Assembly (NCBI GenBank): GCA_039566865.1
Contig: CM076955.1
Span: 11,423,001 to 11,487,000 of the forward strand
Source: Aurelia coerulea
Lineage: Eukaryota; Cnidaria; Scyphozoa; Semaeostomeae; Ulmaridae
Length of the DNA stretch: 64,000 bases
Reading direction: 5' to 3'
In this document: positions 34,020 to 56,400 of the stretch, piece by piece
How positions within the stretch are numbered: the stretch's first letter is position 1
How the letters are laid out: every line of letters starts with the position of its first letter
Translations under genes and position numbers: made by a program
Notes under the pieces: generated by a model
Databases searched by the model: none
The model's input: the letters and a program-made list of their open reading frames with translations, nothing else
What the model was told of the DNA's origin: nothing

Positions 34020-37000
34020 CACTTATTAGGAATGAAATGCCTCGAAATCACGAACACCTGGCTAACTGTAGTGCGTTGCAGGCCAGTTTCTTTTCCAGAC
34101 CTGGCAGTTTGGCATTTCTGTTCTGCTTTGACAACTGCACAATACTGCACAATAAATGTCATGGTTATTGGAGAAGAATGACGTAATTTTAGCCGCCCGC
34201 CAAAATATACCCCGCCATAGTAGCCTGCACAGGATCTGGAATAACAGCAAAGACCAGAAATGTTTCGACCGCTGTGCAAAGTGCTTTTTGCGTCTGCACA
34301 AGCCGCCAGAAACAGAACGGTGGGAGAGGGGTGAATTTCTGGGGACTGCACGCAGTTGCGAAGGAATCTATTGTGATCCAGGCCCCTTGAGACGCGGCTT
34401 GAGTTCGAGAACACGCCGAATGTGTCGAGAAGGGGATCAAATATGGCTGAAAAAATCATCGACCCTGGAAAGCTTCGATAAAAATGGATTATTTGGCTTT
34501 ACTTTTCTTGGGCTGAAGGCGATATTTAGCAAGGAAAAATCAAAAAAGAGATATGGATTTTGTGGAAAAACTAGTGGCTGCCGCAAGCTGAACCTTTGTG
34601 GATTTTATCTGCAGGATATGAGCATCATTTTGGGGCAGGTCAGTATTCTTGAAAAATTGGCTAAGTGTTTCATTTTTTGCCATAAAGTTAGGGCTGTTTT
34701 CGATGACGAAAAATATCTCTTGTTTGTTTACATGTAAACAGACAGCTTGTAGGAAGGTCTAAACAATGAATATGCCATGGAAATTTTTATCCCAGCTTCG
34801 TTAGGATGTATAATTTCATGAATCGTATTCCGATCATTTATCCTGGCATTTTTTGACCACAAAAATATTTAATTTCTTAACACAGGCCATTTTCTAATGG
34901 GAAAGAGGGAAAATTTAGTAGCCCCAGAAAACTGAAATTTGCGCAAAATCTAGTGGCTGCCGCAAAATGAGACTATTATCACTGTGTTGGCGAGATGTTC
35001 AGCTTCAAATTTCTCAAACCAGTTCTTGTCGAAAAATTGGCTAACATTGTTAATTTTCATGTTTTAGTTTGTAAACATTTGAACAAAATACGGCATCCAT
35101 GCCTAGGCCATTCTATTGTCTTAGCATTCTTGCTGTTGTTGTCGATGGATGGCCTTTTGTTTTTCAGTCCTGTCTTTTTGTACCCAGACAGAGTCTCCTC
35201 GTGCTCTGATGCTCTATTACCTTGTTTCATCATGTTTTACAAGGACTATTTGCCTCACTAATGCATAATAAAATTAAAATTTAGATTGTCAACTTATGAC
35301 TTATTTGCTTTGAGTTCCTATGTATTTTTATATCAAAATACCAGAATTCATTTGTGATTGATTCACCTTCAAATGACCCACATTTGGTTGCTGCTTAGCA
35401 TGAAAGCATATGCAGTTCTTTTACAAATTTAGCAATGATTCCACAATGTTGTGTCAGTTATTACAGTTATTACCCATCACCAGTTTTTTTTATCTCTGAT
35501 TTTTACAATTGGGCACTTGGTGGAAAGAACAGTTAGATGAGAAATCTCTAATTCTCCTTTCTTTTTCTCAGATACTGCAACATCAACTATGCTTGCTGCT
35601 GATAGAACTCCTCCAATTTGCAAATTTTTGCTGGACCCTGCAAGATGTTCAAGACAGGATTCCCAGAAGAAGAATGGACACTGTTTGAATAGGGTGAATT
35701 TTAACAAATCTTGAGGCATTGAAATATCTCCATTTCAACTTGTGTAAAAATTTCCAAGTATGTAAAAAATTTCCAAGGAATTTCAGATTGATTCCTCTCC
35801 TGCTCCTAAGGTTTAAATGATCCTAAATAGGTTGGTGATGTGGAATGCAGCTGTAAAGTCTTAAGGTATTTTTCTGTGACTACATCTGATCATTGTTGTA
35901 TTTTCTTGTTTGAAATCCTTAGCTAGCCATAAATAGTAGGATCTTGTAAATTTGGAATTTTGTTGAAACTGTATTTTACCATTAGGCATTAGATTGAAAG
36001 ATCCAGAACGGAAAATTATGCCCAAGATGGAGGGGAGGAGGGGCGGAACTTTTTATCAAGATGCATTGTATTCCAATTAAGAATTTTAATGATTTTGTAA
36101 GGATTCAATCAGGATGCCATGTATTAAATGGTAATAATTCCTCATTGCCATCTTTGAAGTAGTCAGTGCCTGATGAAAAAGGTGATGAGTTTGAAGCAGA
36201 GGTGTAGGAACCATGGGGGCACTGGGAGCACATGCCCCCCAAATTGTGCAATTATGATGAAAAAGTGTCCTTTTTGTTTCGGGAAGTGTCTGTCCTTGTA
36301 GTGTTATGCCCCCAAGTTTAAGATGCTTCCTACGGCTCTTGTTTGAAGGAGTACTGTATTGCAGCACATTGGCTCCGAAAAACAATTGTATCCTATTGTT
36401 GTAAAACTGGCACCCTTTCGTACCTCAGAAGTACATTGTGACAGAGTTTACCACAACAGGATGTCATTTTGCTTTTAGGGGTCAATCACCAGCACACATT
36501 TAATACCAACATTCAGTCTAAATCAGTTGCTAGAATTTAAGAGGATGGGACTTGCCCCCCCCCCCCTTCAAGAAGAGAACTCTGCTTTCTGCTTGTTACC
36601 CAAATTTTGGTAAGAAATACACCCAGAACTGTGATAGTAGCCTTAGCCTCCATCTCCTCTTTTTATCTGCTTCACACAAAATGAAAGGGAGTATGCAGTA
36701 CAATGATCACCTAATTATTTTGTTATATCGAGGAAATCCAGTAAAAATGTTCGTGCTCCATTGCCATGCTATCATTCAATTTTTGCCTCTTCGAGTTTGG
36801 TCTGCATCCATCACTGGTCTGAATGTTTCTGGTTGAATTTGAAAGGAGCCTAGTATTGAAACTAAAATTGATTGATAACAATCTTTTGCTGGACATTGTG
36901 AAATAAGCTACAAATAGTTCTTCATTTCGATCGTCGCTGCTAGCTATAGCATCAGCTGATTCAATTTCTGCTTTCCACCGTTGTGATTGTCACGTGATCA

Positions 37001-37048
37001 CTTCGCCTCGTTTCCAGGAGCCATGCATGACCCTCCTGCGCGCGCATA
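34020..37048. other. Upstream region of the MRTF-like gene; no other gene recognised
   Basis: The stretch 34,190-34,400 is relatively GC-rich and could hold the promoter. A diverged duplication with CTAGTGGCTGCCGCAA and GAAAAATTGGCTAA occurs at 34,562-34,700 and 34,940-35,060. Long frames on both strands around 34,020-34,740 overlap each other and show no known domain. Confidence 0.4.
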
Positions 37049-38790
37049 AGAAACATTTCTGGTCTTTGCTTGGAATAACAACAAATGAACAAACACAATC
37101 AGAAATTCTAGCAAACTTTTTCAAAAATTTCTTCAATAAACCAACAGGTGAAACAACCCTTGACGTAAAACCATGCAAAATGAAAATACCTTTTACATCA
37201 GAGGAAGTTAAAGAAGCAATATCAAAACTGAAACCAAACAAAAGTGCTGGCATTGATAACATAAGAGCTGAACACTTGCACTCAGCACCACCTCAGATAC
37301 ACAACAGAATAGCTAAAATACTAAATGAGATAGCAGAAACAGGACAAACTCCAACTGAAATCAAAAGAGGAATCCTAGTACCACTGCAGAAACCTGGGAA
37401 AAAAGCAGGACCATGCACTAATATTAGACCAATAATACTTTTATCTCTGCTAAGAAAAATCTTAGCCATTATTATGTTGAACAGAACAAGTCATAAAATC
37501 GAAAAACATATCCCTCGTTCTCAAGCAGCATACCAAAAAAATAGGTCAAGCACAGAACATGTATGCACTTACAAAATACTAGCTGAGAAAGCAATATCAT
37601 CCAATGATTATGATCTCCACATCCTACTAATGGACCTATCAAAAGCCTTTGATACAATTCACAGAAAAACTTTAATAGAAGACTTGAAGCACATTGTTGA
37701 TAGTGATGAATTGCATATTATAAAAGTAATGCTTGAAGGAATAGAATACACAGTAAAATGTGGAAACAGTTTTAGTCAACCTTTCACAACAAACACCGGA
37801 TCGCCACAAGGAGACTGTCTTAGTGCAATATTTTTCATCCTTTACCTTGCAAAAACACTTGAGTACAACATCCATTTAAATGATCATAGCTACGCACTAC
37901 CAGCACATCTAGGAGAATCACCCCATCAAGCATCAAAAGATCATGATTATTGCCTCTCTCCCATGCAAAGCCACAAAATAATGCAAGAAGCCTTAAAAAT
38001 AGACACACAATATGCTGATGATTGCGGAAGCGCTATAGTAACGAAAGATAAAAGAGCAGTTGAATACATAAAATCAACAATACCAGGAAGATTAAGAAGT
38101 AGAAACCTTTTATGCAATGAAGACAAAACTGAACAACATATCGTAAATCGTGACAATCGATATGGCACATGGACCAAGTGTAAATATTTAGGGTCAAAGC
38201 TAGATACTGAAGAAGATAGGAAACACCGTACCATGCTAGCCACAAATGCCATGAACAACCTGACAGAAATATGGACAAGCAATATAAACATAGAGAAAAA
38301 GATGGAAATTTTCAATGCATTCATAAGGAGTGTCTATATGTACAACACATGCCTATGGACAGTTACCAATAAAACTAGAAACAAAATTGATGCAACCCAA
38401 AGAAAATTACTAAGAAAAGCACTCAACATAAAATGGCCAACAAAGATATCAAACGAAAATTTAATGAAGTTGACAAAACAAGAATTATGGTCAAAAATCA
38501 TACAAAAACAGCGAATTAGGTGGTTTGGACATGCACTACGCCTCCCTGAAAATACACCATGCAAGCAAGCAATAAACGAATTCAAACGAGCAGTCACAAG
38601 ACCAAAAGGCCATCCCATCACAACATGGTACAGTCAAGTTTTAAGGGAACTCAAAGATAAAAACGTTGAGATAAACAACCTCGAAGAAATCGCAAGTGAC
38701 AGAAGAAAATGGAGAGAAATTGTAACAAAATTTAACTAACTGTAATGTAGTGATACGTAAAACAGGTAGAAAAAAAAAAAAAAAAAAAAG
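37049..38790 (+). mobile_element. A-rich poly(A)-tailed LINE, 5'-truncated, open reverse transcriptase
   Basis: An uninterrupted frame from about 37,049 to 38,739 (roughly 560 codons) encodes the reverse transcriptase: LKPNKSAGIDNIRAEHL, GILVPLQKPGKKAGPC with NIRPIILLSLLRKILA, LLMDLSKAFDTIHRKTL, TGSPQGDCLSAIFFILYLAK, catalytic QYADDCGSAI. The C-terminus is QRIRWFGHALRLPENTPCKQ. That last segment resembles the end of RTE-type proteins. The coding strand is unusually A-rich compared with the neighbouring LINEs. The tail is 19 A at 38,769-38,788. It lacks the endonuclease and was probably truncated on insertion. Confidence 0.7.
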
Positions 38791-38952
38791 TAGCCTGCGT
38801 GCAGACTCGACTATCATAAAGTGTAGAGTCTGCGCAACAAAGTCGAAACGCTTGTTTACCTCATCGTGATTGATCAATCAATTTTCTGAAAAGTTTGGGA
38901 AGCAGGAAGCAGCTCGGATTTTGATTGAACAAAAATGTTCGTACACGAGTAA

Positions 38953-39075
38953 GGGAGCGGTCATTTTTAATCCTGGGTACCGGGGCGGAGGATTTTTGAC
39001 AGGGGTATGAAACTTTTTTCCATCATTTTATGGGGGTACGAAACTTTCAAGGAAAAATTTTATGGGGTACGAAAC
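38953..39075. repeat. Left terminal inverted repeat and three subterminal motifs
   Basis: Terminal inverted repeat 38,953-38,994. Subterminal motifs GGGGTATGAAAC (39,002-39,013), GGGGTACGAAAC (39,033-39,044) and GGGGTACGAAAC (39,064-39,075) are spaced 31 bases apart, about three helical turns. They may be transposase-binding sites. Confidence 0.8.
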
Positions 39076-39189
39076 TATTTTGCTTTCAAAAAATTTATGT
39101 TAAGTCACCAATAAACATTTAAAAGAAAAATTAACAGTATTGAGGATTGTTTTCACAGCATGTGCTAAAAACAGTTTTTATAAATACTG

Positions 39190-40658
39190 TTAATTCTTCT
39201 TTGTAAAAAATGATGTGAGTGAGGCTTGTTTGCTGTCATTAATGTTTTTCTGCAGCTGGCGTTGTTTCTTCTTCAAAGTTATGTCACTTGATTTCAATAG
39301 ATCTTGTTCCATTCTCTCAACTGCTTTTTCTGCTTGTTGCATGCTCCCATCAAAATCCGCAAACACACCATTCTCCAACAGCAATTTCAGGCCATTCAAG
39401 TGCAACTTTGGCAATAACTTGCTGAAACCATCTTCAACCAAATTATGTTTCTCAATATAGAAACTAAAGTCAGATTTGCTGACCATTCCTGAGAAGTCCC
39501 GTCTGCATGTTATGCTGAGACAAGCTGAGGCACTTTTCAGGCATCGCTGCTTCAGTTCTTTCACTGATTTAGCTTTGTTTTCTATTTTTCTCTTTTCTGC
39601 TCTCCTCTTCTCGTGCTGTTCAGCAGAGCTCATTGAGATGCTTGATGATCTAGCGATAGCTGCGCTCATCTTTCCAGCCAACTGACAAAGTTCCTCTTTC
39701 TCTTTTTTAATTGTTTGCAAAACTTGAGTGTAAAACTCTAACTCGTTGTGTTTCCAGGAAACCACTTCATGCTGGGTGTTGTAGAGCTGGACACGGAAAT
39801 CATTTACTTCTTCTTCAAAATTTTTGACCAGTGAAATCTTCTTTTCAAGAAATTCTGAAGCATTCTTTGCTTGATATATGGTTCTTGAATTTATTTGGCA
39901 ATCTTCTGCAGAAAATTTCCGAATGTTGAAGCAGTTGCCATCAGCACTTGTTTTGATCTGCTCCTGGAAGTTAAGAAATACATCTAACTTCTTCTGAAGC
40001 TGCCACCTTGACTCCCGTTGATTGCACACATAGCGCATAAAGGCATCTGGCACCATTAAAGAATAACAATCCTCATATAGCTTGTTTGTTATGAAATTAA
40101 AATATTCTTGCTTCTTGTTGACTGCATTTGGCAGGAGCATCTCCTTGACCATTGATGGGACTGGAAGAAAAGAAATGTCTCAAATAAGTGGAATGTATGT
40201 GTGATTGAAAATATAAATTTTGAAAAAAAAACAGTCACAGATAAAAATGAAAAATAAGCAGAGGCCTAGGTTGGTACGCTAGAAGGTCAACCTCTCTCTT
40301 CTCCTGACAATCTTTTGTCTTTTTGAACGCAAAACTCATCATAGTAATTTTTGTCCTTTACTAAGAAGTAAGGTAACAGGTAAGGTAACATTAATCACTC
40401 ACCTTCAACACTAGAAGGGGCAGCTTTGTGATCTTGCGGTGCAATCGGATTTACCTCAATACATTTGCGAATGTTGAGAGCTGCTATAAACTTTTTTATG
40501 TGGCCTTTCTTCTCAATATTGGCATCTGCAAGCATTTCTATCACCTCACTTTCTTTCATGGTCAACATGAACTTGACATCATCGTAACCATTTTCCACCA
40601 GGTTTCCGAAGTACTGCTCCAGTTTAACATTTGTCAAAAACGCTTTTAATTCCTCCAT
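39190..40658 (-). CDS. SAM-domain/coiled-coil protein with C-terminal PIP box (transposon accessory protein)
   Basis: Two exons: 40,658-40,403 and 40,160-39,190, joined by a 242-bp intron (donor G/GTGAGT, acceptor TTCTTCCAG) in compatible phase, giving 408 residues. Residues 1-70 (LTNVKLEQYFGNLVENGYDD, MLADANIEKKGHIKKFIAAL) form a SAM domain, a protein-interaction module. The rest is mostly helical with a predicted coiled coil and a basic patch (EKRRAEKRKIENKAKSVKEL). The last 12 residues, QASLTSFFTKKN, contain a perfect PCNA-interacting peptide (QxxLxxFF). It lies next to the left terminal repeat and is transcribed toward it, divergent from the DDE gene. Its likely role is to help target the transposase or couple transposition to replication, which is an inference. 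The start at 40,658 is the first Met before the SAM fold; an upstream exon is possible. Confidence 0.75.
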
Positions 40659-40690
40659 CTTTTATTCTCGTTCAAGTTCATCAACACTCT

Positions 40691-42480
40691 TCATATGGGA
40701 TTGTAGAGTAAATTCTGAGCTTTCATCTGATATGTAGGGGTACTTTGGCAAAATTGCGGTTCTCTTGTTACAAGAATTTGAAAATACTGATATTTGGAGA
40801 ATTCTGCAAAAATTTCAAGAATTTCCTGTTTCCAGACCCCTTTGAGAACTAACTGAAAATTAAAATTTTAGTTCAATAATCAGGCTTGCCGCACAACTTC
40901 CTTTATAAGGGTTTGTAGAGGAAATTTTGAGCTTTCATCTGATATGTAGGGGTACTTTGGCAAAATTGCGGTTCTCTTGTTACAAGAATTTGAAAATGCT
41001 GATATTTGGAGAATTCTGCAAAAATTTCAAGAATTTCCTGTTTCCAGACCCCTTTGAGAACTAACTGAAAATTAAAATTTTAGTTCAAAAATCAGGCTTG
41101 CCGCACAACTTCCTTTATATGGGTTTGTAGAGGAAATTTTGAGCTTTCATCTGATATGTAGGGGTACTTTGGCAAAATTGCGGTTCTCTTGTTACAAGAA
41201 TTTGAAAATACTGATATTTGGAGAATTCTGCAAAAATGTCAAGAATTTCCTGTTTCCAGACCCCTTTGAGAACTAACTGAAAATTAAAATTTTAGTTCAA
41301 AAATCAGGCTTGCCGCACAACTTCCTTTATAAGGGTTTGTAGAGGAAATTTTGAGCTTTCATCTGATATGTAGGGGTACTTTGGCAAAATTGCGGTTCTC
41401 TTGTTACAAGAATTTGAAAATACTGATATTTGGAGAATTCTGCAAAAAATTTCAAGAATTTCCTGTTTCCAGACCCCTTTGAGAACTAACTGAAAATTAA
41501 AATTTTAGTTCAGAAATCAGGCTTGCCGCACAACTTCCTTTATAAGGGTTTGTAGAGGAAATTTTGAGCTTTCATCTAGTATGTAGGGGTACTTTGGCAA
41601 AATTGCGGTTCTCTTATTACAAGAATTTGAAAATGCTGATATTTGGAGAATTCTGCAAAAATGTCAAGAATTTCCTGTTTCCAGACCCCTTTGAGAACTA
41701 ACTGAAAATTAAAATTTTAGTTCAGAAATCAGGCTTGCCGCACAACTTCCTTTATAAGGGTTTGTGGAGGAAATTTTGAGCTTTCATCTAGTATGTAGGG
41801 GTACTTTGGCAAAATTGCGGTTCTCTTATTACAAGAATTTGAAAATGCTGATATTTGGAGAATTCTGCAAAAATTTCAAGAATTTCCTGTTTCCAGACCC
41901 CTTTGAGAACTAACTGAAAATTTAAATTTTAGTTCAGAAATCAGGCTTGCCGCACAACTTCCTTTATATGGGTTTGTAGAGGAAATTTTGAGCTTTCATC
42001 TGATATGTAGGGGTACTTTGGCAAAATTGCGGTTCTCTTGTTACAAGAATTTGAAAATGCTGATATTTGGAGAATTCTGCAAAAATTTCAAGAATTTCCT
42101 GTTTCCAGACCCCTTTGAGAACTAACTGAAAATTAAAATTTTAGTTCAAAAATCAGGCTTGCCGCACAACTTCCTTCATATGGGTTTGTAGAGGAAATTT
42201 TGAGCTTTCATCTGATATGTAGGGGTACTTTGGCAAAATTGCGGTTCTCTTATTACAAGAATTTGAAAATGCTGATATTTGGAGAATTCTGCAAAAATTT
42301 CAAGAATTTCCTGTTTCCAGACCCCTTTGAGAACTAACTGAAAATTGAAATTTTAGTTCAGAAATTAGGCTTGCCGCACAACTTGCTTTATATGGGTTTG
42401 TAGAGGAAACTTTGAGCTTTTATCTGATATATATAACTACTTTGGCAAAATTGCGGTTTTTTTGTTACAAGAATTTGAAA
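40691..42480. repeat. 212-bp tandem repeat inside the transposon
   Basis: GAGCTTTCATCTGATATG recurs at 40,717, 40,929, 41,141, 41,353, 41,566, 41,778, 41,990, 42,202 and 42,414, a spacing of 212 (once 213). About 8.4 copies; the first and last are diverged, the inner ones nearly identical. No coding. It starts just upstream of the SAM gene start, between the two divergent genes. Confidence 0.95.
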
Positions 42481-44931
42481 TAGGAATTTTCTTAGAATTC
42501 TACAAAAGTGGAAAGAATTCCCTGATGCTCTGGGAAAATATGTTGAATGGTCAAAAGACCATGTTTTGAAAATGAAATTACCAAATGTGTTGATCATGTT
42601 TTGGTTGGAAAATTATACTTGACCTATGGTCAGGTCATGGCATGGTCAAACATTATTCATGGTCCAATTTTTGTTACTTCTTCTTGATCATAAAAGACGA
42701 TACAGTATGATCAAAGATTTCACAATAAGCATGGTGAATTAAAATCAATCACAGATAACCAATGAACTGGGATTATGATGTCAGAAATTCTGGTAATGGA
42801 TGTTGAATGCAAGTACACCTGGAAATTTTTTTCCCAGCACCATGTCCCCACTGATTCAGAACAGATTTGATTTGTTCTGTATGCAACCATGACTGAGAGG
42901 ACATCCTTTTATTTTGCCTTGAAATTGAATTCCCCTTTAACATTAAATTGCTTTTTGTTATTTCTTCGAAATCTGGGATTGGGTATAAATATCTGACCTA
43001 TATTCTGGGATAGGGTATCAATATCTGACGGAAATTCTGGAATTAGGTCATATTGGAAATCCTGTTGGCACACACCCCTGCATGAATTTTAGTGAAGTAC
43101 CCCCCTCCCCTGGTGGCCAGTACATTTGGCCATGTCCAAACATGATTTACTGTAATCCATTACTGTAGTGGGGCTTTCCACCAGGAGGTATGCTGAAATG
43201 AACTTTATTCTCTAGAATAAACAATCCAGTATTATTTTCTAAGTTTAACTCAGTCTTTGAAATCTATAATTATCTCATAGTTGGCTGATTAAAAAAGTGA
43301 AGATCATTTTGGCACACCTGGTACAACGCCAGTGCCACAGACAGGCGGAAAAGCTAGGAAATCATACATCTTGAAATGTAATATATTCATTAAAACTGAA
43401 GATTAAGCTATGTGAACAACTCTAGAAATCTTATTGATATGTAAACTGGCATAAGAATGAACTCCACACTAATATTTATGTATATACTTCTTAGTAGTGC
43501 TATTGCTACCACCCATCGTTAAGAAAAATCTGCCAAAAAAGGGACTCTGCCCATACCCTCAACATCTTATGTATCCCCCCCCCTGGAGTTTTTCTTTGCT
43601 GACATCATTGTAGAAGGTTGTTGAGAATACCAAGAACTGCCCCTTTTGTCCGAGTCTTTTGTTATGCTGGTAAAGTTCAAAGCAGATCAACAGCTGGGAA
43701 ACCTATTACCATGCCCGAGAATCGCTTTGTTTCTTTGCTAATTCTTGTTTGGATTGTGGCCGGATTATCCGCCCACATTCTTTCCACAAAACCAAACGTG
43801 CTTTCTGCGCATGATCACAGGTTTCCTTTTTGGGGGATAAACGTTGTTTTGAACTTTGATGATTTGTATTCCCAACAACAAATCGCACAAGCAGACAACT
43901 GCTTGAAAATGCATTTTTTGAATGTTTCATGACTTCACTGTATCTATGAGCTACGAGAATGTCTACAGAATCAATTGTTAATTGTTGATCTTGTGCAGTA
44001 AGAGGAGAAGTGGGTCAACGTTTGCACATTATTGACCATCAATGCTCATCAACGTCTTCTCAGAATAATCAAATCTGCTTCTGGAAAATTGAAAAAGGAA
44101 CTCATAAAAATTACAAATGGCTAAGAATTAACAAGAAAATAAGAAAGTAGGAACTGCTGAATTTTTTTAATTTATCAGATTTATCAGTACTGAAAGTTTC
44201 TCAGCTGTTTCTCTGGGAATGTTCTTCAATATCATACATGTCTTTTTTTATAAGAAACCGCTTATAAGAAATGGTAGGCTCAATTTTTCGAAACTTCCCA
44301 TCACACTCAAAAATGTTCTGACACTGTCCAGTTATAACAACTGTTTGGACATTATTTTGAGTGCGAATTACGTTACTTAGTTGTTTTAGATCTTACTAAG
44401 TTCTCTGGGAACCCTTCAGACAAAACGAAGTTAACTCAACTCTTCCGGCATTAAAGAATAAGAAACAGTAAGAAACTTTTGGCAGCGAAATGGCCCAAAA
44501 ATTTAAGAAACTGCCTACCAGCCCCGGACACCTTAGTTTCTCAAAAGAAAAATATGTGTATTTCATTTATTGTTGTGGGATCTCCTGTGCTTTGCGAGTA
44601 ATAATAGAGGGACCATCAATATTTCGGTTTTGTAGCCAAAACAAAATCGCCCTCAAATTAAAAACGACTGCCATTTGTTTTTCAAGTTCAGACCCTCGAT
44701 CTTGCAGTGCAGTATCGACAATGTGCCTCAATTTGAAACAAAAATCTAACCTCTTTTCCTTCTTTGGTTGTTTGTGTAGGTTCATTACATAAGTTCTTAA
44801 ACTTTTGCTCGTTGTTGTTGCTGTTATCGATTGAGGTTTTGACGTGACAATTCAGTTGGGAAATGAAACAAGAGACTTTTGGAATGAATCTATGGTTTTG
44901 ACAGGTTTGGCGCCAAACTTTGTTAATAAAC
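42481..44931. other. Intergenic region of the transposon, probable divergent promoters
   Basis: No recognised gene. A patch at 42,955-43,100 has repeated CTGGGATAGGGTATCAATATC-like units. Frames at 43,618-43,932 and 44,490-44,792 overlap opposite-strand frames and lack recognisable domains. The sequence just before 44,932 should hold the promoter and 5'UTR of the DDE gene. Confidence 0.4.
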
Positions 44932-47900
44932 ATGGCCGCCAAGGATCCTGCAGTGCAAAACAAGCCTGCGACTGGCAACGAAACGAGAGAAGAGATTCGG
45001 AAATGTTCATACATCAACGAAGTTGTAAAAGTCTCTTTGCAGAGTTGCAGCTTAAGTGGAAATCGATCTCTGCTCAGCAGCTACATAGAAAGACGAGATG
45101 CAGACTCGACAACTTGCAGGAACCTCAGCTCTCTTCGGTATATTCTCGATTGTCTTTTAGCCAATGTCTCCAATCGGCCTGGAAAATCCAAGGTACTCTC
45201 TTACATGTCATTTGATGAAGCTTATGACATTTATTTGGCTTATCAACATCCAGCTAGAGGCAAATTTATGCAGTCGGACCGTCACGAAAAGAAACACTTT
45301 ACAGAATTGGTTCTTCACCCAAAGTACGGCCTCTGTGTAAACATTGTTAAAGTAAAACAGAAAGAATACATTGTACTGCGCCCAGACAATTTTAACTTGG
45401 AAGCATTCTATGAGCATTGTTTTACTGATGAAGGAAGACATGAACCAGTGGATAAGGAATTTATTAAAAAGGTTTTCAGCAGTATGGATACAGAGTGGGA
45501 CAAGAAAATCCTTCGGGTAGTTTTGGGGCTATCAAGGACAAGGAAGGAGATTGACATGCTTGGTATGAACAGTGACACAGTTTTAAAGGACAGACAAACC
45601 ATTGATAATTTCTTTGACAAGTGTGATGAACTGAAAAATGAAGCAAAAAAGGTTGTGAAAAACAAGTTGATACACCAGAAAGTGCAAGCCCAAGAATTGA
45701 TGTTGAAGAAACAGCGCCTTCTATTAGCAAAAAAAAAGTTATGGAGTGAGCTTCAAATAAATCAACAAACCGAATGCATTGAAGATCTTCAAAGCAAAAC
45801 TACAGCTTTAAATGATTTGATAAATGAAGAGACTTCTCAGCAGAAAAAGCTTTCTTCCATGGTAAGCCACACCCTAAATAGAATAATTGAAGTGCAGAGA
45901 TTAAAGCTCAGAAAGCTTGGTAGTGGGAGAAAACAAGTTCTAGATGAAATAGATGAGAAGTTTATTGCTGAATGTATTTCATCAAAAGCAACTGCTCATG
46001 GAAGAAGGAAAGATGCAGTTCTATATTTGCATCACAGGGTAAAGAAACGCGACTTTTTGCAATTGGCAAATTATTCCAGGCTACAGAGAGGTTGTCAGCC
46101 AATAAAATCTGCAACAACTGTTTTCAACAGAGCCAGACCAAAAAATATGCGTTCAAGACAGGCAAAAAAGCATTTGGGTTTAGGATTATTTTGTTGCAAG
46201 AAGCCTCCAAAGGCAGAGGATACTTCCAGCCTACTAACACATTTTTGTCGCGCACACAAAAAGAATATCATTCGTCATTTGAGTACTACTGATAACAATT
46301 TGACCACATACAGAAGTTTTGATGACAAAGCCTATCTGTGTCCAGATACAAGCACTGGCATGCACAGTGCACGCTCGCAAGCAGTTTACTCCACAACTGA
46401 TGATGCTACAGCCAGAAAGTTCAAGAAATATGATTTCCCCATTTCCATGCTCAACTGCACACCTGGTACATTCCATTTCATGAGCAAACAGGTTGAAAAC
46501 ATTGATAACAAAGAGCAAGTCAGGACAACTGAGCAACAAAGCATGGTCATAGTAAAGCCCAAATATTTTATTGGGAGCTCTGGACTAGTTTGGTCAAGCC
46601 ACCTGATGGATCTAAGATACAGAGAGCCATATCTTCACTTGTTACCTGGTAAGGAAGACTGGCAAGGAAAGTTATATCATAGCTTGTGTTTCAAAACACT
46701 AGCATTATTGAGAAGCCTACTAAATCAGTTGTTGTGGGAAGATATTTGTCTTGTGACTGACGGAGAAGATTGTGCATTTCGTGAATACGAAGTTAAAAAA
46801 TTGTCTTTCTTCAGTCAAAAATTTTTAGAAATAGCTGAATCAGTCAATGCACCTTCTTTCAATGATAAAGAAAACGAATGTGTTCAATTGTTGGTTTTGC
46901 AGCTACACTCTGTTTCAGAAGCAAGTAAAGCACTGATAAACAAAATTAAGTTGCGGAATTCTGGTGTGGTAGTCTTGTCTGAATTTGAAAGTTTGTTTGC
47001 TGTGGTAGAGAGTTGCATATCTTTTATTGGAACACTTAATCTGCCCACACAAAAACCACGTGTAGTGGATCTCACTGATGCAGGGCCAGGGGTAGGAATC
47101 ACAAATAATGATGTTCGCTATGGTATTGCTCAAGAAATACTCATCACAAACATTGACTACTATATCAGACACCATTTAGCACCAGGTGACAGCAGCCACA
47201 ATGAAGTAGAACGAATTCAGAGCTATGTTGGTAAGCAATTTTTTTAACTCTGGTTATCTCAAAAATTGCTTGCGCATCTATCAATAATTGATATCGGAAT
47301 CAATTTTGATGTGCAATTAAATTTTTTTGCTGGGAAGGATAATTGTATCCAAAAGGAGGATACAACTGTGTTTGTGCAAACAATGGAAATCAAAAAGAAA
47401 GTTTAATGATGCAGCACAGGCGTTGTTTAATTTAACCTGTTTCATTGAAAAAACTTTTTGCGAATTCAAGACTCCTTTTTAGCTGTGCAGATTTCTTAGA
47501 CCAAGCCCTTCTATACTAGGTGGGCTGAGGATAGCAATAGAATTGAAACAAAGCGATAGGATTATATGTTGATGGTAATCCTAACCTTTGCAGAAAGGCT
47601 GAAAAATCTCAGGTAAGCACAGGTAAGAATAATCCTGTAGACCAATCAGAAAAACTGGCCCTCCTCTTCATAAACAGCACTTTATTCTTGTTTGTCAACA
47701 AGGGGTTCTCCTACACAAGAAAACAAATTCTATCATTGAAGAATTCTTGATACATTGCACTTCACACTAAAGCTGATGCATATACTGTATATATATTTTT
47801 GTATCAAGAAAATCTCATTCAAGGGTCCATAATAATTTTATATTTACAGGTGATGCAATTTGTGATGGTGGCTATCTACAGTGGGAATACCAAGAAAAAT

Positions 47901-49039
47901 ATCATGGCATAACTGAAGAGGAAATACCCAACCTTTCAACTGATGATCTTGAAAAGAATGAACTTAGCCGAATGAAATTCAATGCATTCAAAGTTTGTGA
48001 AGAGGTTTCTGATCGAATTGAGGGTGCTGTTGCACCTGATGGATATCTGAAATCATTTGTTACCCCTGAAAGTGAAGAACTGTTTTTCTGGGATAAAGAA
48101 TACCTGAGGAGATATATTGATGAAAAAGACAAAAAGGCAGTTGTTCCTGGTTACCATTTTTATACTAAGCTTGATAATTTCATGGAAAAGCACTTTCGAA
48201 AAGGAGAAAAATACCTGGAATTTGTTAAGTTTTCTTGTGATGATGATCTTTGCGATTTTTGCTCAAGAAGTACCTGGGTTGGATCACCATGTTCAAGAAT
48301 ACCTGAACCAGTGCCTGACAAAACGGCAGATGGTTATAAGTATTTACATGTGAAGGATACTCCAACAACCTTCCATGGCAAGCAAAGAGAGGTTAATGAT
48401 TTCAATCCAAGAACAAAATTGAAAACTCTTTTTCAAGAAAATCAGATTTCATCCAAAATGATTAATGAAATTGATGAATTTTGTGCACAGTTTATAGTGG
48501 AGAAGAGTGATGTTTTCAAGGCAGTTAAGGAATTTGAATGCTCACACTTGAGAAAACAGGTTCGCCTACAAGAAAATAGGAGAGCCAGGGATGAAGAAGA
48601 TGCTATGACTTACAGAGATTTTGACTGGGACAAACATGTAAATATGAATACACTCAAGTCATTAAAAGTGAAGAGCCTGGACAAGTATCTCATATTTCAC
48701 AATCTGAAGCATTGTCTGAAGTTAAAAAAGCAGCAGAAAATGGAGACAATAAAACAATGGCACTTTAGGATTATGAATGACAATATTCAAGGTGAAAATA
48801 TTGTTCAAGAATCTGATGAAAGCGAATCAGAACTTGATGCCAGTGAAGCTGAGATAGAAGACAGTGATGATGTGATACAAACTACTGTTGTAACCGATGA
48901 AGATGAGTCTGATGAGCATGATCCTGAGCCTGATGATCTGGAGAATGATTCTGAGCCTACTGCTGAAGTGCTTTTCTCAACAACTCGCAGTGGAAGAATA
49001 GCTGGTAATTGGCGTTTGTCTGAGTATTTTGGTAAGTGA
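44932..49039 (+). CDS. DDE integrase-like transposase
   Basis: Exon 1 is 44,932-47,230 and exon 2 is 47,850-49,039 (donor GTTG/GTAAGC, acceptor TTTACAG/G, 619-bp intron, phase 1), giving about 1,162 residues. The ATG at 44,932 sits in AACATGG and is the first Met of the frame. A basic coiled coil covers about residues 225-330. A basic region RRKDAVLYLHHRVKKRDFL follows. The catalytic core is inferred from SFDDKAYLCPDTSTG (Asp464/465), VVDLTDAGPGVG (Asp716) and APGDSSHNEVERIQSYVG (Glu758/Glu760), which matches the second Asp and the Glu of integrase/RNase H-fold transposases. About 250 residues, mostly helical, separate the first two. Exon 2 has a Cys cluster (CDDDLCDFCSRSTWVGSPC) and an acidic tail. 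The end LSEYFGK-stop coincides with a strong donor (G/GTAAGT), so a further exon is possible. Confidence 0.75.
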
Positions 49040-49546
49040 CCATTACTTTTCTTTTGATTTTTAAAACTTGTTGTGTTGCTGTAATTTTGCGACATTCATT
49101 TGATGAATAGGGCTCTGGGAACATAATGTAGCATTTGATGAATAGGGCTCTGGGAACATATTCAAAATCCAAAAAGTACAGTATAGAGCAATTGAATTTG
49201 AAAAACTTGAAATGTATAAAGGTAACAAATAAAAAGAAATGTGTGTGATGCAAGCAATGTAGCTTTGTGGGTTTCATAGCATTATTTTGGGCCGGGTTTT
49301 TGGCTAGTTGTACCTGCTGTAGGCTCTTTACCACAATACTTTTTGTGTTTTTATAGCATTTGATTGTACTCTAATAATATATTTTTACCAGTAGTAGCAG
49401 GACTATGTGAGTTTAATCTTGTTAAGAAAATACATTTGTATTTTAGCGGACATCTGGAAATGATACATCACTTTTGCGGTATGATCACCTGGGACAACTT
49501 GGTATGTGCGCGCATATATATATTTTGGACTCTGAGAATTCTGGAT

Positions 49547-49682
49547 GGGGTACCAAACCATTTTACTGAAAGATGGTGGGGTATGAAATATTTTTCTGTG
49601 TTCAAGATGGGGTATGAAATTTTTTTATATTATGTGAAATTATCCTCCGCCCTGGTACCCAGGATTAAAAATGACTGCTCCC
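49547..49682. repeat. Right terminal inverted repeat and three subterminal motifs
   Basis: Terminal inverted repeat 49,641-49,682. Subterminal motifs GGGGTACCAAAC (49,547-49,558), GGGGTATGAAAT (49,578-49,589) and GGGGTATGAAAT (49,609-49,620) again have 31-base spacing. They have the same orientation as those at the left end, not the mirrored one. Confidence 0.8.
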
Positions 49683-49813
49683 TAATCACGCCGCGCGGTG
49701 CTTGCTCATTCGTTTCAAAATGGCGAAGTAGTGTGGAGCTGTGAGAAATTTAGTTTGGAGCGCTGAAAGGTTTGAAAGAAGGATTGGAATTTGTTAAGTT
49801 ATATTATCGCGTC

Positions 49814-50179: not shown

Positions 50180-53100
50180 TCACCCTAGGTACTCGCGGTA
50201 TACTTCATCGAGTATTTCCTGGCGTTCTTTGTTTTGTTTCTTTGCCAGCAGCGTCACTAAACAAGATGGAGTCAAGACAGAACTGGTGAAGTCCATGATG
50301 CTTCTGCAGTATGGGCTGCCAGGGCTACAACAATTTCTCAATACTGGGACTGGCTTGTGCAACTGTCCCTTTTGTGTAATTGTAGCCTTCCCTCTGCATC
50401 CAATCCAATGATTTAATTCCATGTCTATTAGCTCGGGTAATATACTTTCCTCTCTTGTAAGTACCTCACTATGGCATTGTGCAAGTTGCTCAGCTCGTAT
50501 CTTCAAGGTCTTTGCATCCTTCTGAAATATATGCCTAATATCTTTTTCGAATGGCTTCAAATAGGGTGATGATCGGTTTGAACACATTTCCTGTAATCTC
50601 TGCATTTCTTCGCTAACGACGCATCTTGCGGATAAGACGCTTTCATATACCTGTCGGCAACTCAAGTTAAGATACCTCCGTTGATAAATCTCTTGATATT
50701 CCTCAAGGGAACACTTATTCAGTTCAACGTCCGTTATTGTTACCATATCATTGGTTTCTAAGTCTACATGCTTGTATTCTCTGTCCTCTGTAATGGATAT
50801 CTTTTTTAAGAATTCCAGCATCTCCAAGTCATTCATACGTTCAGATATTTCCAGCTTTCTTCTTATGATTGCATTGTATATCAGCATTCGCTCAGATTCC
50901 ACATTTACGTTGCTAGGCGTTCGGTACCTGCTGAGAATAATAAATCGTAGGTACATGCACACGAACATGCCACAACTGACGCTATCCTCCTGTTTCACGA
51001 AATTGTAGCAACTGGAGAGGATTGACAGGTATTTGACTTGCTTTGGATTACCCCTGATTAAGACTCCAAATACGTTCATGTAAAAACAAAAACTGTCTAT
51101 GGCCGATTGTATTGGTTTTGCGTCCAATGAGTCGACGTAAGTAAGAATGCCTTTGTGAATGTCAACAACCATTCCTATCCAGTGTACATCATCTATTGAC
51201 CAGGCTGTTATTGCATATTGATATTGGTTGTCGGAGATTTCTCTCTTCTTCTCTAGAATGCGCTCAAAATGCTTGGTAGAGGGTCCTTTGCGCACGTGAC
51301 TTTTCAATTCTACACTGGGTACCACTAAAACTGGCTTGTCCAATCCTTCATATGCCGCATTTGCAATCAAAAGCATGAATCCATCAATGACATCACTTTT
51401 AAAATTTCCAAAATCTTTCACTTGCTTCAATGAATTTCTACTAACGGCTACATTAGTGTTCAAAAGCCTTTCACTTATTTCTATCCTTTCCCTGGGCAGG
51501 GGCAAGAAAGTACTGCTTGTGCTATCTGGAAGGCCTTGTGTATGCTCTATGTCAATCCTGCTCTTTGGATTCTTATCTTGCAGCAAATTTGGGTTGAATC
51601 TATCCACTTTGACCAAGATAACGATGTACTCTCCTTTTCCAAATTGTTTCCTTGTTCTATCAATGTAAGTACCAAACTCAGCAAGAGAGTACACATTTGT
51701 TTCAGATTGATCACATGTGATTACATGACCTCCGTTCCGAACGAAGAGTTTCATCTGTTCTGTTGAAAAGATACAGTGTACTCTGTAGTTGACTTTATTT
51801 GAAGTGTTTAAATTGAGCTGCAACTCCTTTCCAAGTGTTGTCTGCTTTACCTCTTGCGTTGGACTTATCGAGCTACATTTGACCACCAGTGTATCTGGAA
51901 CATCGTAAAGCGTGAATCTGGATTCAAAGGTTACAGTTTCTGCACATCTTTTGCATTTTCTCTTCTCTTTCGCTCTCAAGAAAGCCCTTTCAATTTTCTT
52001 CAGATCTAGATCAATGACCTTGAGCTCATTATCAACATTTATTTCCACATCTTCACAATCACATGATGAGCATGTTCTTTGTTCAATATTGAAGATGCTT
52101 CTGCTGAAATCTGTGTTAACTGCTCTCAATGCATCGTAGAACAGTGCATCGAAATCCCCATTGTTACTGTAAAGTGGTAGCCTTTGAAAGTATTCTCTAG
52201 CCGTGACAAATAAGAGTGAATGGAAGTCATTCTTCTCCATTTCTCCAGTTAGATATCTATCGCGAATATCCCTGAAGTCATCCAGAGGAATGTTGGGTGT
52301 CAACCCAGCGGCCATTGGAATTGCATCTATGCATGTTGCAGCCAAGAAAGCAGGCGCAAACTTTTCGACAAAATCGTTTATGTAGTCAAGTCTTTCATAC
52401 AGGAAAATATAGCCATCTGATTGAATAGATGGAACCTGTTCCACGGGTACAACTTTAGCAGACAAGTCATCGTATTGTATCAATATGTTTTCATTAACGT
52501 ATGTACATGCAGTATAATGACCACTGGCGGGTGTTTCTCCATGATGTAGAACACATGCCCGCAACTGGTATTGGGTGCTCATTTTGCCAACATCGTTAGC
52601 TGCAAACAGCTCGCCGGTTCCTTTTCTACTGTTTGTTGAGTGGTGATCCAAATTGAGAATATAGGAAGGATGAATCGCTCTTCTTGATTTTTGTTGCATA
52701 TTTAGATGTTCGTTGAATTTGTAGCGATTTAAAGCTATGGCTAAGTCGGTAGGTGCTTTGGTAACAACCTTTGCATACCCCTTCCCTGTGTTACCACCAC
52801 ATTTGCAGTTAACATCTTTGATTTGTTCGTCTGCGAAGTAGTTGTCGATGGCGCTTTGTATCGAATGTGTCTCACCTGATACTTCTTCTCTCTCTAGTGT
52901 TAATATGGACACTTTTAGATTCTTTTCCAGAACCTCTTCTTTACCACAACTAAAGCAAGTAGACATCTTTCCAAAGGTTAATTGCCAGATGTCTGAATTG
53001 GGCTCTGAATTCACTGAGTTGATGATCTTGTCCATTATTTCATGTGCATCGTGTTGCATACCAATTTGGAATTCTGTCCTGTTTAGTTTCTCCAGCATTT

Positions 53101-53365
53101 TCAAACAATCGACTTGTTTCGTCATAAGATTGGTTTTTGATGCAGTGAATTGTCTCAACCGATCAAATAGAAAAATGCAGGCTAATGGGTAGCTTGGTCT
53201 TTCAAAGTCAAGTTCGATTCTGAGCAACTTGTAGCTGTGTATAATTGAACACATAGCTTGTAGAACGGCATTTAGCCAACAGTTATTGTAGTGGTTCGCC
53301 AGTCCTATCAAAAGCTGACGGAGGACTGTCTGAATAACCAGGACTGTTTCTTTTATTTGCTCCAT
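50180..53365 (-). CDS. USP-USP-like-Ulp1 triple protease (ubiquitin/SUMO isopeptidase fusion)
   Basis: One open frame of 1,061 codons from the ATG at 53,365; no stop interrupts it. Region 1 (about residues 20-335) is a ubiquitin-specific protease: Cys box GLANHYNNCWLNAVLQAM (Cys29), GMQHDAHEIMD, a Cys pair finger, and His box GETPASGHYTAC (His283). Region 2 (about 360-620) looks like a second USP domain with Cys-rich finger (TCSSCDC, KCKRCAE) but without a catalytic Cys box. Region 3 (about 640-850) is a C48/Ulp1 protease with His728 (DDVHW), Asp745 (TYVDSL), Gln and Cys798 (KQEDSVSCGMF). Such an enzyme would cut ubiquitin and SUMO conjugates. The frame ends at a donor-like G/GTGAGT, so a small 3' exon may exist. 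The true start may lie upstream, since satellite DNA begins about 40 bases away. Host gene or cargo of another transposon is unresolved. Confidence 0.7.
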   Translation of the reverse strand: MEQIKETVLVIQTVLRQLLIGLANHYNNCWLNAVLQAMCSIIHSYKLLRIELDFERPSYPLACIFLFDRLRQFTASKTNLMTKQVDCLKMLEKLNRTEFQIGMQHDAHEIMDKIINSVNSEPNSDIWQLTFGKMSTCFSCGKEEVLEKNLKVSILTLEREEVSGETHSIQSAIDNYFADEQIKDVNCKCGGNTGKGYAKVVTKAPTDLAIALNRYKFNEHLNMQQKSRRAIHPSYILNLDHHSTNSRKGTGELFAANDVGKMSTQYQLRACVLHHGETPASGHYTACTYVNENILIQYDDLSAKVVPVEQVPSIQSDGYIFLYERLDYINDFVEKFAPAFLAATCIDAIPMAAGLTPNIPLDDFRDIRDRYLTGEMEKNDFHSLLFVTAREYFQRLPLYSNNGDFDALFYDALRAVNTDFSRSIFNIEQRTCSSCDCEDVEINVDNELKVIDLDLKKIERAFLRAKEKRKCKRCAETVTFESRFTLYDVPDTLVVKCSSISPTQEVKQTTLGKELQLNLNTSNKVNYRVHCIFSTEQMKLFVRNGGHVITCDQSETNVYSLAEFGTYIDRTRKQFGKGEYIVILVKVDRFNPNLLQDKNPKSRIDIEHTQGLPDSTSSTFLPLPRERIEISERLLNTNVAVSRNSLKQVKDFGNFKSDVIDGFMLLIANAAYEGLDKPVLVVPSVELKSHVRKGPSTKHFERILEKKREISDNQYQYAITAWSIDDVHWIGMVVDIHKGILTYVDSLDAKPIQSAIDSFCFYMNVFGVLIRGNPKQVKYLSILSSCYNFVKQEDSVSCGMFVCMYLRFIILSRYRTPSNVNVESERMLIYNAIIRRKLEISERMNDLEMLEFLKKISITEDREYKHVDLETNDMVTITDVELNKCSLEEYQEIYQRRYLNLSCRQVYESVLSARCVVSEEMQRLQEMCSNRSSPYLKPFEKDIRHIFQKDAKTLKIRAEQLAQCHSEVLTREESILPELIDMELNHWIGCRGKATITQKGQLHKPVPVLRNCCSPGSPYCRSIMDFTSSVLTPSCLVTLLAKKQNKERQEILDEVYREYLG

Positions 53366-53406
53366 GTGATACAGAGCGGGATAAATCCTTTTCAATGGCA
53401 AGTTGT

Positions 53407-56400
53407 ATTCATAGAAAAGGTATTTGGAAGTTGCGTTCGAAGTCCTGACTCTTGCAATAACGGACGGAAAAAGTGACTCAATCGGTTATTGTGACAAAAA
53501 CGAAAAACTCCAAGTTACAAGGGTGGGGCTTGGGTACTAAACAATTTTGCTCCACCAAACCGAGTTTGCAATCGTGTTAACCATCCTATAAACTATTCAG
53601 AAAAGGTATTTGAAAGTTGCGTTCGAAGTCCTGACTCTTGCAATAACGGACGGAAAAAGTGAAAAGATCAGTTTTAGGCCAAAAATCTACGGTTTCCAAG
53701 GTAAAAAGGTGAGGGCTGGGTACTAAACAATTTTGCTCCACCAAACCGAGTTAGCAATCGTGTTAAACATCGAATAACCTATTTATAAAATGTATTTGGA
53801 AGGTGGGTTCGAAGTCCTGACTCTTGCAATAACGGACGGAAAAAGTGACTCAATCGGTTATTGTGACAAAAACGAAAAACTCCAAGCTACAAGGGTGGGG
53901 CTTGGGTACTAAACAATTTTGCTCCACCAAACCGAGTTTGCAATCGTGTTAACCATCCTATAACCTATTCAGAAAAGGTATTTGGAAGCTGGGTTCGAAG
54001 TCCTGACTCTTGCAATAACGGACGGAAAAAATGGACATATCAGTTTTAGGCCAAAAATCTACGGTTTCCAAGGTGAAAAGGTGAAGACTGGGTACTAAAC
54101 AATTTTGCTCCACCAAACCGAGTTTGCAATCGTGTTCACCATCCTATAACCTATTTAGAAAAGGTATTTGGAAGTTGCGTTCGAAGTCCTGACTCTTGCA
54201 ATAACGGACGGAAAAAGTGACTCAATCGGTTATTGTGACAAAAACGAAAAACTCCAAGATACAAGGGTGGGGCTTGGGTACTAAACAATTTTGCTCCACC
54301 AAACCGAGTTTGCAATCGTGTTAACCATCCTATAAACTATTCAGAAAAGGTATTTGAAAGTTGCGTTCGAAGTCCTGACTCTTGCAATAACGGACGGAAA
54401 AAGTGAAAAGATCAGTTTTAGGCCAAAAATCTACGGTTTCCAAGGTAAAGAGGTGAAGACTGGGTACTAAACAATTTTGCTCCACCAAACCGAGTTTGCA
54501 ATCGTGTTAACCATCCTATAACTATTCAGAAAAGGTATTTGGAAGTTGGGTTCGAAGTCCTGACTCTTGCAATAACGGACGGAAAAAGTGACTCAATCGG
54601 TTATTGTGACAAAAACGACAAACTCCAAGTTACAGAGGTGGGGCTTGGGTACTAAACAATTTTGCTCCACCAAACCGAGTTTGCAATCGTGTTAACCATC
54701 CTATAACCTATTCAGAAAAGGTATTTGGAAGTTGGGTTCGAAGTCCTGACTCTTGCAATAACGGACGGAAAAAATGGACATATCAGTTTTAGGCCAAAAA
54801 TCTACGGTTTCCAAGGTAAAAAGGTGAAGACTGGGTACTAGACAATTTTGCTCCACCAAACCGACTTCGGAATCGTATTAACCATCCTATAAGATATTCA
54901 GAAAAGGTATTTGAAAGCTGGGTTCGAAGTCCTGACTCTTGCAATAACGGACGGAAAATGTGAAAAGATCAGTTTTAGGCCAAAAATCTGCGGTTTCCAA
55001 GGTAAAAAGGTGAAGACTGGGTGCTAGACAATTTTGCTCCACCAAACCGACTTTGGAATCGTGTTAACCATCCTATAAACTATTCAGAAAAGGTATTTGG
55101 AAGTTGGGTTCGAAGTCCTGACTCTTGCAATAACGGACGGAAAAAGTGACTCAATCGGTTATTGTGACAAAAACGTCAAACTCCAAGTTACAAGGGTGGG
55201 GCTTGGGTACTAAACAATTTTGCTCCACCAAACCGAGTTTGCAATAGTGTTAACCATCCTATAACATATTCAGAAAAGGTATTTGGAAGTTGGGTTCGAA
55301 GTCCTGACTCTTGCAATAACAGACGGAAAAAGTGAAGAGATCAGTTTTAGGCGAAAAATCTACGGTTTCCAAGGTAAAGAGGTGAAGACTGGGTACTAAA
55401 CAATTTTGCTCCACCAAACCGAGTTTGCACTCGTGTTAACCATCCTATAACATATTCAAAAAGGGTATTTGGAAGTTGGGTTCGAAGTCCTGACTCTTGC
55501 AATAACGGACGGAAAAAGTGAAAAGATCAGTTTTAGGCGAAAAATCTACGGTTTCCAAGGTAAAGAGGTGAGGGCTGGGTACTAAACAATTTTGCTTCAC
55601 CAAACTGAGTTTGCAATCGTGTTAACCATCCTAGAAGCTATTCAAAAAAGGCATTGGGAAGCCGGGTTCGAAGTCCTGACTCTTGCAATAACGGACGGAA
55701 AAAGTGAAAAGATCAGTTTTAGGCCAAAAATCTACGGTTTCCCAGGTAAAGAGGTGAGGGCTGGGTACTAAACAATTTTGCTCCACCAAACCGAGTTAGC
55801 AATCGTGTTAACCATCCTATAACCTATTTAGAAAATGTATTTAGAAGTTGGGTTCGAAGTCCTGACTCTTGCAATAACGGACGGAAAAAGTGACTCAATC
55901 GGTTATTGTGACAAAAACGACAAACTCCAAGTTACAAGGGTGGGGCTTGGGTACTAAACAATTTTGCTCCACCAAACCGAGTTTGCAATAGTGTTAACCA
56001 TCCTATAACATATTCAGAAAAGGTATTTGGAAGTTGGGTTCGAAGTCCTGACTCTTGCAATAACGGACGGAAAAAGTGACTCAATCGGTTATTGTGACAA
56101 AAACGAAAAACTCCAAGTTACAAGAGGTGGGGCCTGGGTACTAAACAATTTTGCTCCACCAAACCGAGTTTGCAATCGTGTTAACCATCCTATAACCTAT
56201 TCAGAAAAGGTATTTGGAAGCTGGGTTCGAAGTCCTGACTCTTGCAATAACGGACGGAAAAATTGGACATATCAGTTTTAGACCAAAATTCTACGGTTTC
56301 CAAGGTGAAAAGGTGAAGACTGGGTACTAAACAATTTTGTTCCACCAAACCGAGTTTGCAATCGTGTTCACCATCCTATAACCTATTCAGAAAAGGTATT

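Follow-up and report, generated by a model that had tools for sequence, protein, structure and literature searches.

Which group of DNA transposons pairs a DDE-type transposase with a SAM-domain protein? The question is raised by a 64,000-nucleotide stretch of the Aurelia coerulea genome (GenBank assembly GCA_039566865.1, contig CM076955.1, positions 11,423,001 to 11,487,000 of the forward strand), hereafter the window, whose numbering is used throughout. A 10,730-bp transposon with terminal inverted repeats (TIRs) occupies positions 38953-49682 of the window, and carries two genes facing apart, a putative transposase gene on the + strand and the gene for a SAM-domain protein on the - strand. 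The element is probably a cut-and-paste DNA transposon with two components, from a lineage that fits none of the superfamilies tested through HMMER profiles and hallmark features, and the best reading of its sequence is that of a superfamily-level lineage unnamed in the open literature searched. More tentatively, and with somewhat less than even confidence, it may represent a new animal superfamily that targets TWA sites, has two components, uses a SAM-domain protein instead of a Myb-like partner and carries a helical insert that separates the first catalytic acid from the second. Helical inserts of other transposases usually precede the last catalytic acid.

Ends, copies and target site

An earlier note on this DNA had described a TIR transposon with a DDE integrase-like gene and a divergent SAM gene, both spliced and open, and the gene models bear this out, with products of 1,162 and 408 amino acids free of internal stops; the two transposase exons are separated by a GT-AG intron, and the element appears intact as to its reading frames. 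The inverted repeat pairs 38952-38993 with 49642-49683 over 42 nt at 95% complementarity. The element itself runs from GGGAGC at 38953 to GCTCCC at 49682, and its 41-bp TIRs show two mismatches on alignment, where three had first been counted. A chance origin of the ends was rejected on the strength of this complementarity and of the recurrence of the left end in the genome. A search of 574,161,440 bases with the left 96 bp of the element yielded 505 first-look candidates, and all 40 that were scored, the window included, matched at 88-100%. An exact-end count gave 70 occurrences against none for the reversed control, a figure inflated by long inverted-repeat units.

End-bearing loci were picked by likeness to the window's left end, one-ended loci going uncounted. 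Both ends are present in 25 copies among 55 loci, 24 of them 392-434 bp long and one of 851 bp, and these copies terminate at the same places as the window element, in keeping with the boundaries proposed earlier. Seven of the eight copies compared with the window element consist of its two ends joined, element positions 1-185 (38953-39137) and about 10488-10730 (49440-49682), at 76-85% identity, whereas L043, the eighth, retains 1-166 and 10677-10730. On this composition, the copies of about 413 bp are read as internal-deletion miniature inverted-repeat transposable elements (MITEs) of the window element or a close sister, in which some 185 and 243 bp remain from the two ends, including GGGGTAYGAAA-like subterminal repeats.

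The 3-bp flanks are identical on both sides in 19 of the 25 paired copies (TTA in 12, TAA in seven) and unequal in six; at the window's GC content, the probability that both sides of a copy carry an identical TAA or TTA is 0.0017. The TAA noted earlier on each side thus holds for the window copy, and as a general rule is replaced by TWA. For an empty-site test, the flanks of the 19 equal-flank copies were joined with one triplet and compared with the loci collected. Three MITEs (L040, L041 and L052) sit in repeats that have MITE-free copies, and the alignments cross the junction with a single triplet; the paralogues, 76-91% identical, are L046, L039, L010 and L066 for L040, L002, L036 and L016 for L041, and L039 for L052. 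The empty sites thus give the length of the duplication as 3 bp, and the flanks give its sequence as TWA. The earlier expectation of TAA at empty sites is upheld as to the single triplet, which is exact in two of 11 alignments (TAA in L039 and L066) and has otherwise drifted, lying one or two bases off in eight alignments and falling in a gap in one (L010). Among the loci collected, no junction-spanning match was found for the other 16 copies or for the window element.

Three longer loci with the same ends (L067, L068 and L069; 7.7, 8.1 and 4.5 kb) were considered as larger members of the window element and rejected, since each is built as a long inverted repeat whose two arms both contain a nested 280-bp MITE of the present group, and none shows a transposase match. 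The nested MITE has TGA on one side and TAA on the other, and not one of the 63 listed matches to the joined flank of these loci crosses the junction.

The putative transposase

The 1,162-residue protein reads as a DDE-type transposase by its predicted fold, an RNase H core in which a bundle of helices lies between the first catalytic acid and the second (234 residues from first to second Asp in P0003). Three acidic residues are invariant where the alignment covers them and lie at the places expected of an RNase H fold, from which catalysis would follow. The second Asp and the Glu are 44 residues apart (677-721), the columns conserved above 80% in this interval hold no Cys, and the conserved columns after the second Asp include D703, R707 and H709. 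A SAP-like segment near the C-terminus is hinted at by a match to Ku70 1jjr (full-sequence E 0.0011, best-domain E 0.029).

The window transposase matched no Pfam family in HMMER at E <= 10, and Pfam transposase profiles matched none of 28 homologues at E <= 0.3 and none of 38 at E <= 0.01; the earlier statement that the protein shows no clear match to a known superfamily thus holds for these profiles. NCBIfam profiles, run on four proteins, and phage records gave nothing useful. The resemblance of the predicted fold to known transposases is weak, and a model of the core alone retrieved no transposase among the 50 VIA rows listed. The core rows of the fold comparison are mariner-type transposases, best Mos1 and Metnase, at scores within the range that a common arrangement alone would suffice to produce. 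The best row from a viral fold library (E 7.8e-4 at TM 0.12) was uninformative.

The SAM-domain partner and related families

The SAM domain of the partner protein was recognized by Pfam (SAM_1, PF00536) at 26.1 bits against a cut-off of 23. The whole protein yielded SAM domains but no Myb domain at E <= 10, and its second exon, scanned alone, no Myb domain at E <= 0.1. Homologues P0029 and P0030 share 79% and 75% identity with it across 77% of its length. The C-terminus resembles a PIP box, a weak hint, as the strict consensus pattern fits the window protein only and not P0029, P0030 or the family-2 protein described below; one study of PCNA and PIP boxes reportedly concerns LINE-1.

Transposase matches in the genome number 15, at eleven places including the window, and among these places no second copy of the window family with a transposase gene turned up. 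A second family comprises copies on C17, C5 and C9 that are 97-99% identical over shared sequence, with a transposase 44% identical to that of the window. In the C17 copy, a SAM gene lies upstream on the opposite strand, with 30% protein identity to the window's (E 8e-39) and an exon break at the same residue, and a SAM exon also lies beside the C5 and C9 copies. The C5 copy (C5:9156136-9165324) is 9,189 bp long and is flanked by TAT on both sides, and its ends, 39 bp each with a single mismatch, are homologous to those of the window element; TAA stands at the left of the C9 copy, whose right side is broken, and TTG at the left of the C17 copy, whose right side is cut off. A premature transposase stop is common to the C17 and C5 copies (L022 and L023) and missing from the C9 copy. 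The two copies that have it lie on different chromosomes, and the shared stop suggests that a stop-bearing copy was moved in trans by proteins made elsewhere; it may instead be common through descent by duplication. Over 499 codons of the family-2 copies, stop codons excluded, nonsynonymous (dN) and synonymous (dS) divergence are 0.006-0.011 and 0.010-0.023, changes too few for inference.

A third family is represented by L029 (C9:15390655), with a SAM exon 35% identical to that of the window and a further match to the SAM protein at E 1e-12. Its left end, TTA followed by GGGACCGGTCATT, aligns to the window end with a score of 48, against at most 32 in 500 shuffles; its right end was not found in a 16-kb stretch. 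Two further loci, L024 and L025 (C11:18151921 and 18284188), have an open 717-residue transposase frame and are identical over 4,980 bp at a distance of 132 kb, an identity that would reflect either segmental duplication or an assembly artefact; no SAM gene was found in 15.4 kb around L024. No end resembling the window's was detected in the C11 copy, nor in the examined parts of L027, L028, L032, L034 and L035.

The retention of a SAM protein at 30% identity beside a transposase at 44% argues that this protein probably belongs to the transposition machine. SAM domains commonly make polymers or pairs, which suggests a role in end pairing or in bringing the transposase to chromatin.

Layout of the element and its surroundings

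The features of the element are collected in Table 1. Two open frames adjoin it. At its left side, 36907-38739 (+) encodes 610 amino acids with a reverse transcriptase domain (E 1.3e-18) and is followed by an A-run, and reads as the 3' end of a retroelement. At its right side, 50180-53485 (-) encodes 1,101 amino acids that combine ubiquitin C-terminal hydrolase (E 9.5e-27) and Ulp1 protease (E 1.9e-8) domains in one protein.

Table 1. Features of the Aurelia coerulea element, in window coordinates
Feature	Position	Strand	Basis
Target site duplication, left copy, TAA	38950..38952		Flanking bases; TWA rule from 19/25 paired copies; 3-bp length from empty sites at 3 MITEs
Left TIR, 41 bp, starts GGGAGCGGTCATTTTTAATCC	38953..38993	+	Inverted-repeat search; same end at 40 scored genome places
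Left subterminal region with GGGGTAYGAAA-like direct repeats	38994..39137	+	Direct-repeat search, MITE comparison
SAM-protein gene exon 2, stop codon 39190-39192	39190..40160	-	Open frame; homologues P0029, P0030
SAM-protein gene exon 1, SAM domain residues 4-61	40403..40658	-	Open frame, Pfam
Tandem array, ~212-bp unit, 8 in-register copies, between both genes	40682..42466		Direct-repeat search
Putative transposase gene exon 1: N-terminal helical region, first catalytic Asp (DDKAY), second (TDAGPGVG), NEVER motif with candidate Glu	44932..47230	+	
Putative transposase gene exon 2: remainder of catalytic helix, Cys-rich motif, SAP-like segment, RSGR tail, stop	47850..49039	+	
Right subterminal region	49440..49641	+	MITE comparison
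Right TIR, 41 bp	49642..49682	-	Inverted-repeat search
Target site duplication, right copy, TAA	49683..49685		Flanking bases

Proposed mechanism and its implications

In the mechanism that we propose, the transposase would bind the 41-bp ends, excise the element and integrate it at TWA sites through cuts staggered by 3 bp, generating TAA or TTA duplications. Its binding sites should lie in the ends retained by the MITEs, subterminal repeats included, because the MITEs keep those ends together with their GGGGTAYGAAA-like repeats. The SAM protein would act as a standing accessory factor, most likely as an oligomerising partner required to pair the ends, to enter the nucleus or to contact chromatin, in a role that may parallel that of the Myb-like protein of PIF/Harbinger. 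The internally deleted MITEs would owe their spread to this machinery or to that of a close sister.

Should the lineage indeed be a new superfamily, it would be one with ends, target rule and MITEs already defined, and TWA targeting with a helper protein would have arisen twice. The lineage would also account for a short-repeat family of the genome, of which 40 members were scored among the 505 first-look candidates, and for a set of animal proteins annotated as uncharacterized, such as those of Ptychodera. With the gene pair it can be tested directly why certain DNA transposons require a second protein and whether a SAM protein can replace a Myb-like one, and the element, if active, is a candidate genetic tool.

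Alternative explanations

The lineage might already be catalogued in Repbase or Dfam under a name missing from open papers, which we consider unlikely but far from negligible. Cnidarian genomes are known to contain many unclassified DNA elements, and homologues of the transposase are not rare, some being publicly annotated as "uncharacterized protein [Ptychodera flava]"; against this, no SAM-domain transposon is described in the titles and abstract openings of the papers listed by full-text searches of the open literature, a body of text outside which lie most subscription journals and Repbase Reports.

It is doubtful that the element is a distant branch of PIF/Harbinger (PHIS) in which a diverged DDE gene gained the helical insert and the Myb-like partner was swapped for a SAM protein. 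Such a branch would share with the Aurelia element the 3-bp TWA duplication, the G-rich inverted ends, the two divergent genes and the many internally deleted MITEs, and PHIS members differ in their target site duplications and coding capacity (PMC4482050, PMC12730594). The partner of PIF/Harbinger is, however, Myb/SANT-like, whereas here a SAM protein is found with no Myb or SANT domain match, and the transposase of about 1,160 residues combines the lack of any Pfam transposase match among the 28 homologues with the long helical stretch between its first two Asp. The earlier note had set the element apart from PIF/Harbinger on these same two points, partner and transposase, and both have held in the HMMER scans.

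It appears improbable that one element captured the SAM gene from its host and carries it as a passenger without a role in transposition. SAM domains are frequent in host proteins, and the related L024/L025 locus shows no SAM gene in the 15.4 kb surveyed, but the gene recurs in the second family, divergent, on the same side and with the same exon break, and its SAM exon in the third. A recent capture does not fit a gene conserved at such depth across families, and a recent passenger was therefore rejected. A Zator or other mariner-like (ITm) relative is very improbable, for although Zator duplications are 3 bp long (PMC10045372) and Mos1 and Metnase head the core fold rows, those scores are attainable from a shared common arrangement, a large insert separates the first two Asp and none of the 28 members has a Pfam transposase match at E <= 0.3.

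Comparison with known superfamilies

The lineage proposed here shares with DDE transposons in general its TIRs, a duplication of fixed length and non-autonomous derivatives, all of which are found in the Aurelia element. Mariner, ITm and Zator elements are single-gene elements. The large DDE transposase recalls the EnSpm/CACTA-Mirage-Chapaev-Transib group, some members of which duplicate 3 bp; hAT, P, MuDR, Kolobok and Dada have RNase H transposases, several with large helical inserts, and the transposase of Academ combines a DDE core of its own with modules of nuclease or helicase type. IS3EU/GingerRoot and KDZ are likewise represented by eukaryotic DNA transposon transposases, integrase-like in IS3EU/GingerRoot.

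Repbase sorts eukaryotic DNA transposons into 24 superfamilies (PMC12730594). Mariner and Metnase share with the Aurelia protein the RNase H core predicted for it, but Mariner duplicates TA (PMC10045372). Zator, which agrees in duplication length, has an ISAzo13-related transposase; HMMER found no transposase-family match in the 28 members at the threshold used above. The hallmark of the EnSpm-like group, C(2)C and H(3-4)H between the second D and E (PMC12730594), was not found in the window lineage, which has no conserved Cys between the second Asp and the Glu. Duplications of 4-10 bp and a C/DxxH motif after the second Asp mark hAT, P, MuDR, Kolobok and Dada (PMC3706591), unlike the 3 bp of the Aurelia element and its conserved columns, which show no C/D-x-x-H spacing. 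IS3EU/GingerRoot usually has 6-bp duplications and mostly TA..TA ends (PMC10045372), and KDZ has duplications of 7-8 bp (PMC12730594), in contrast to 3 bp and GGGAGC..GCTCCC ends.

Three features of PIF/Harbinger were tested: the 3-bp TWA duplication is present, whereas neither a Myb/SANT partner nor a match to the Harbinger DDE profile, which we take to be DDE_Tnp_4, was found with HMMER. Because two of these three features and the EnSpm-like, hAT-like and IS3EU marks fail, and because the duplication is shorter than that of KDZ, the element is left outside the known superfamilies. By analogy, it appears to behave like PIF/Harbinger in its TWA site, its two genes and its MITEs.
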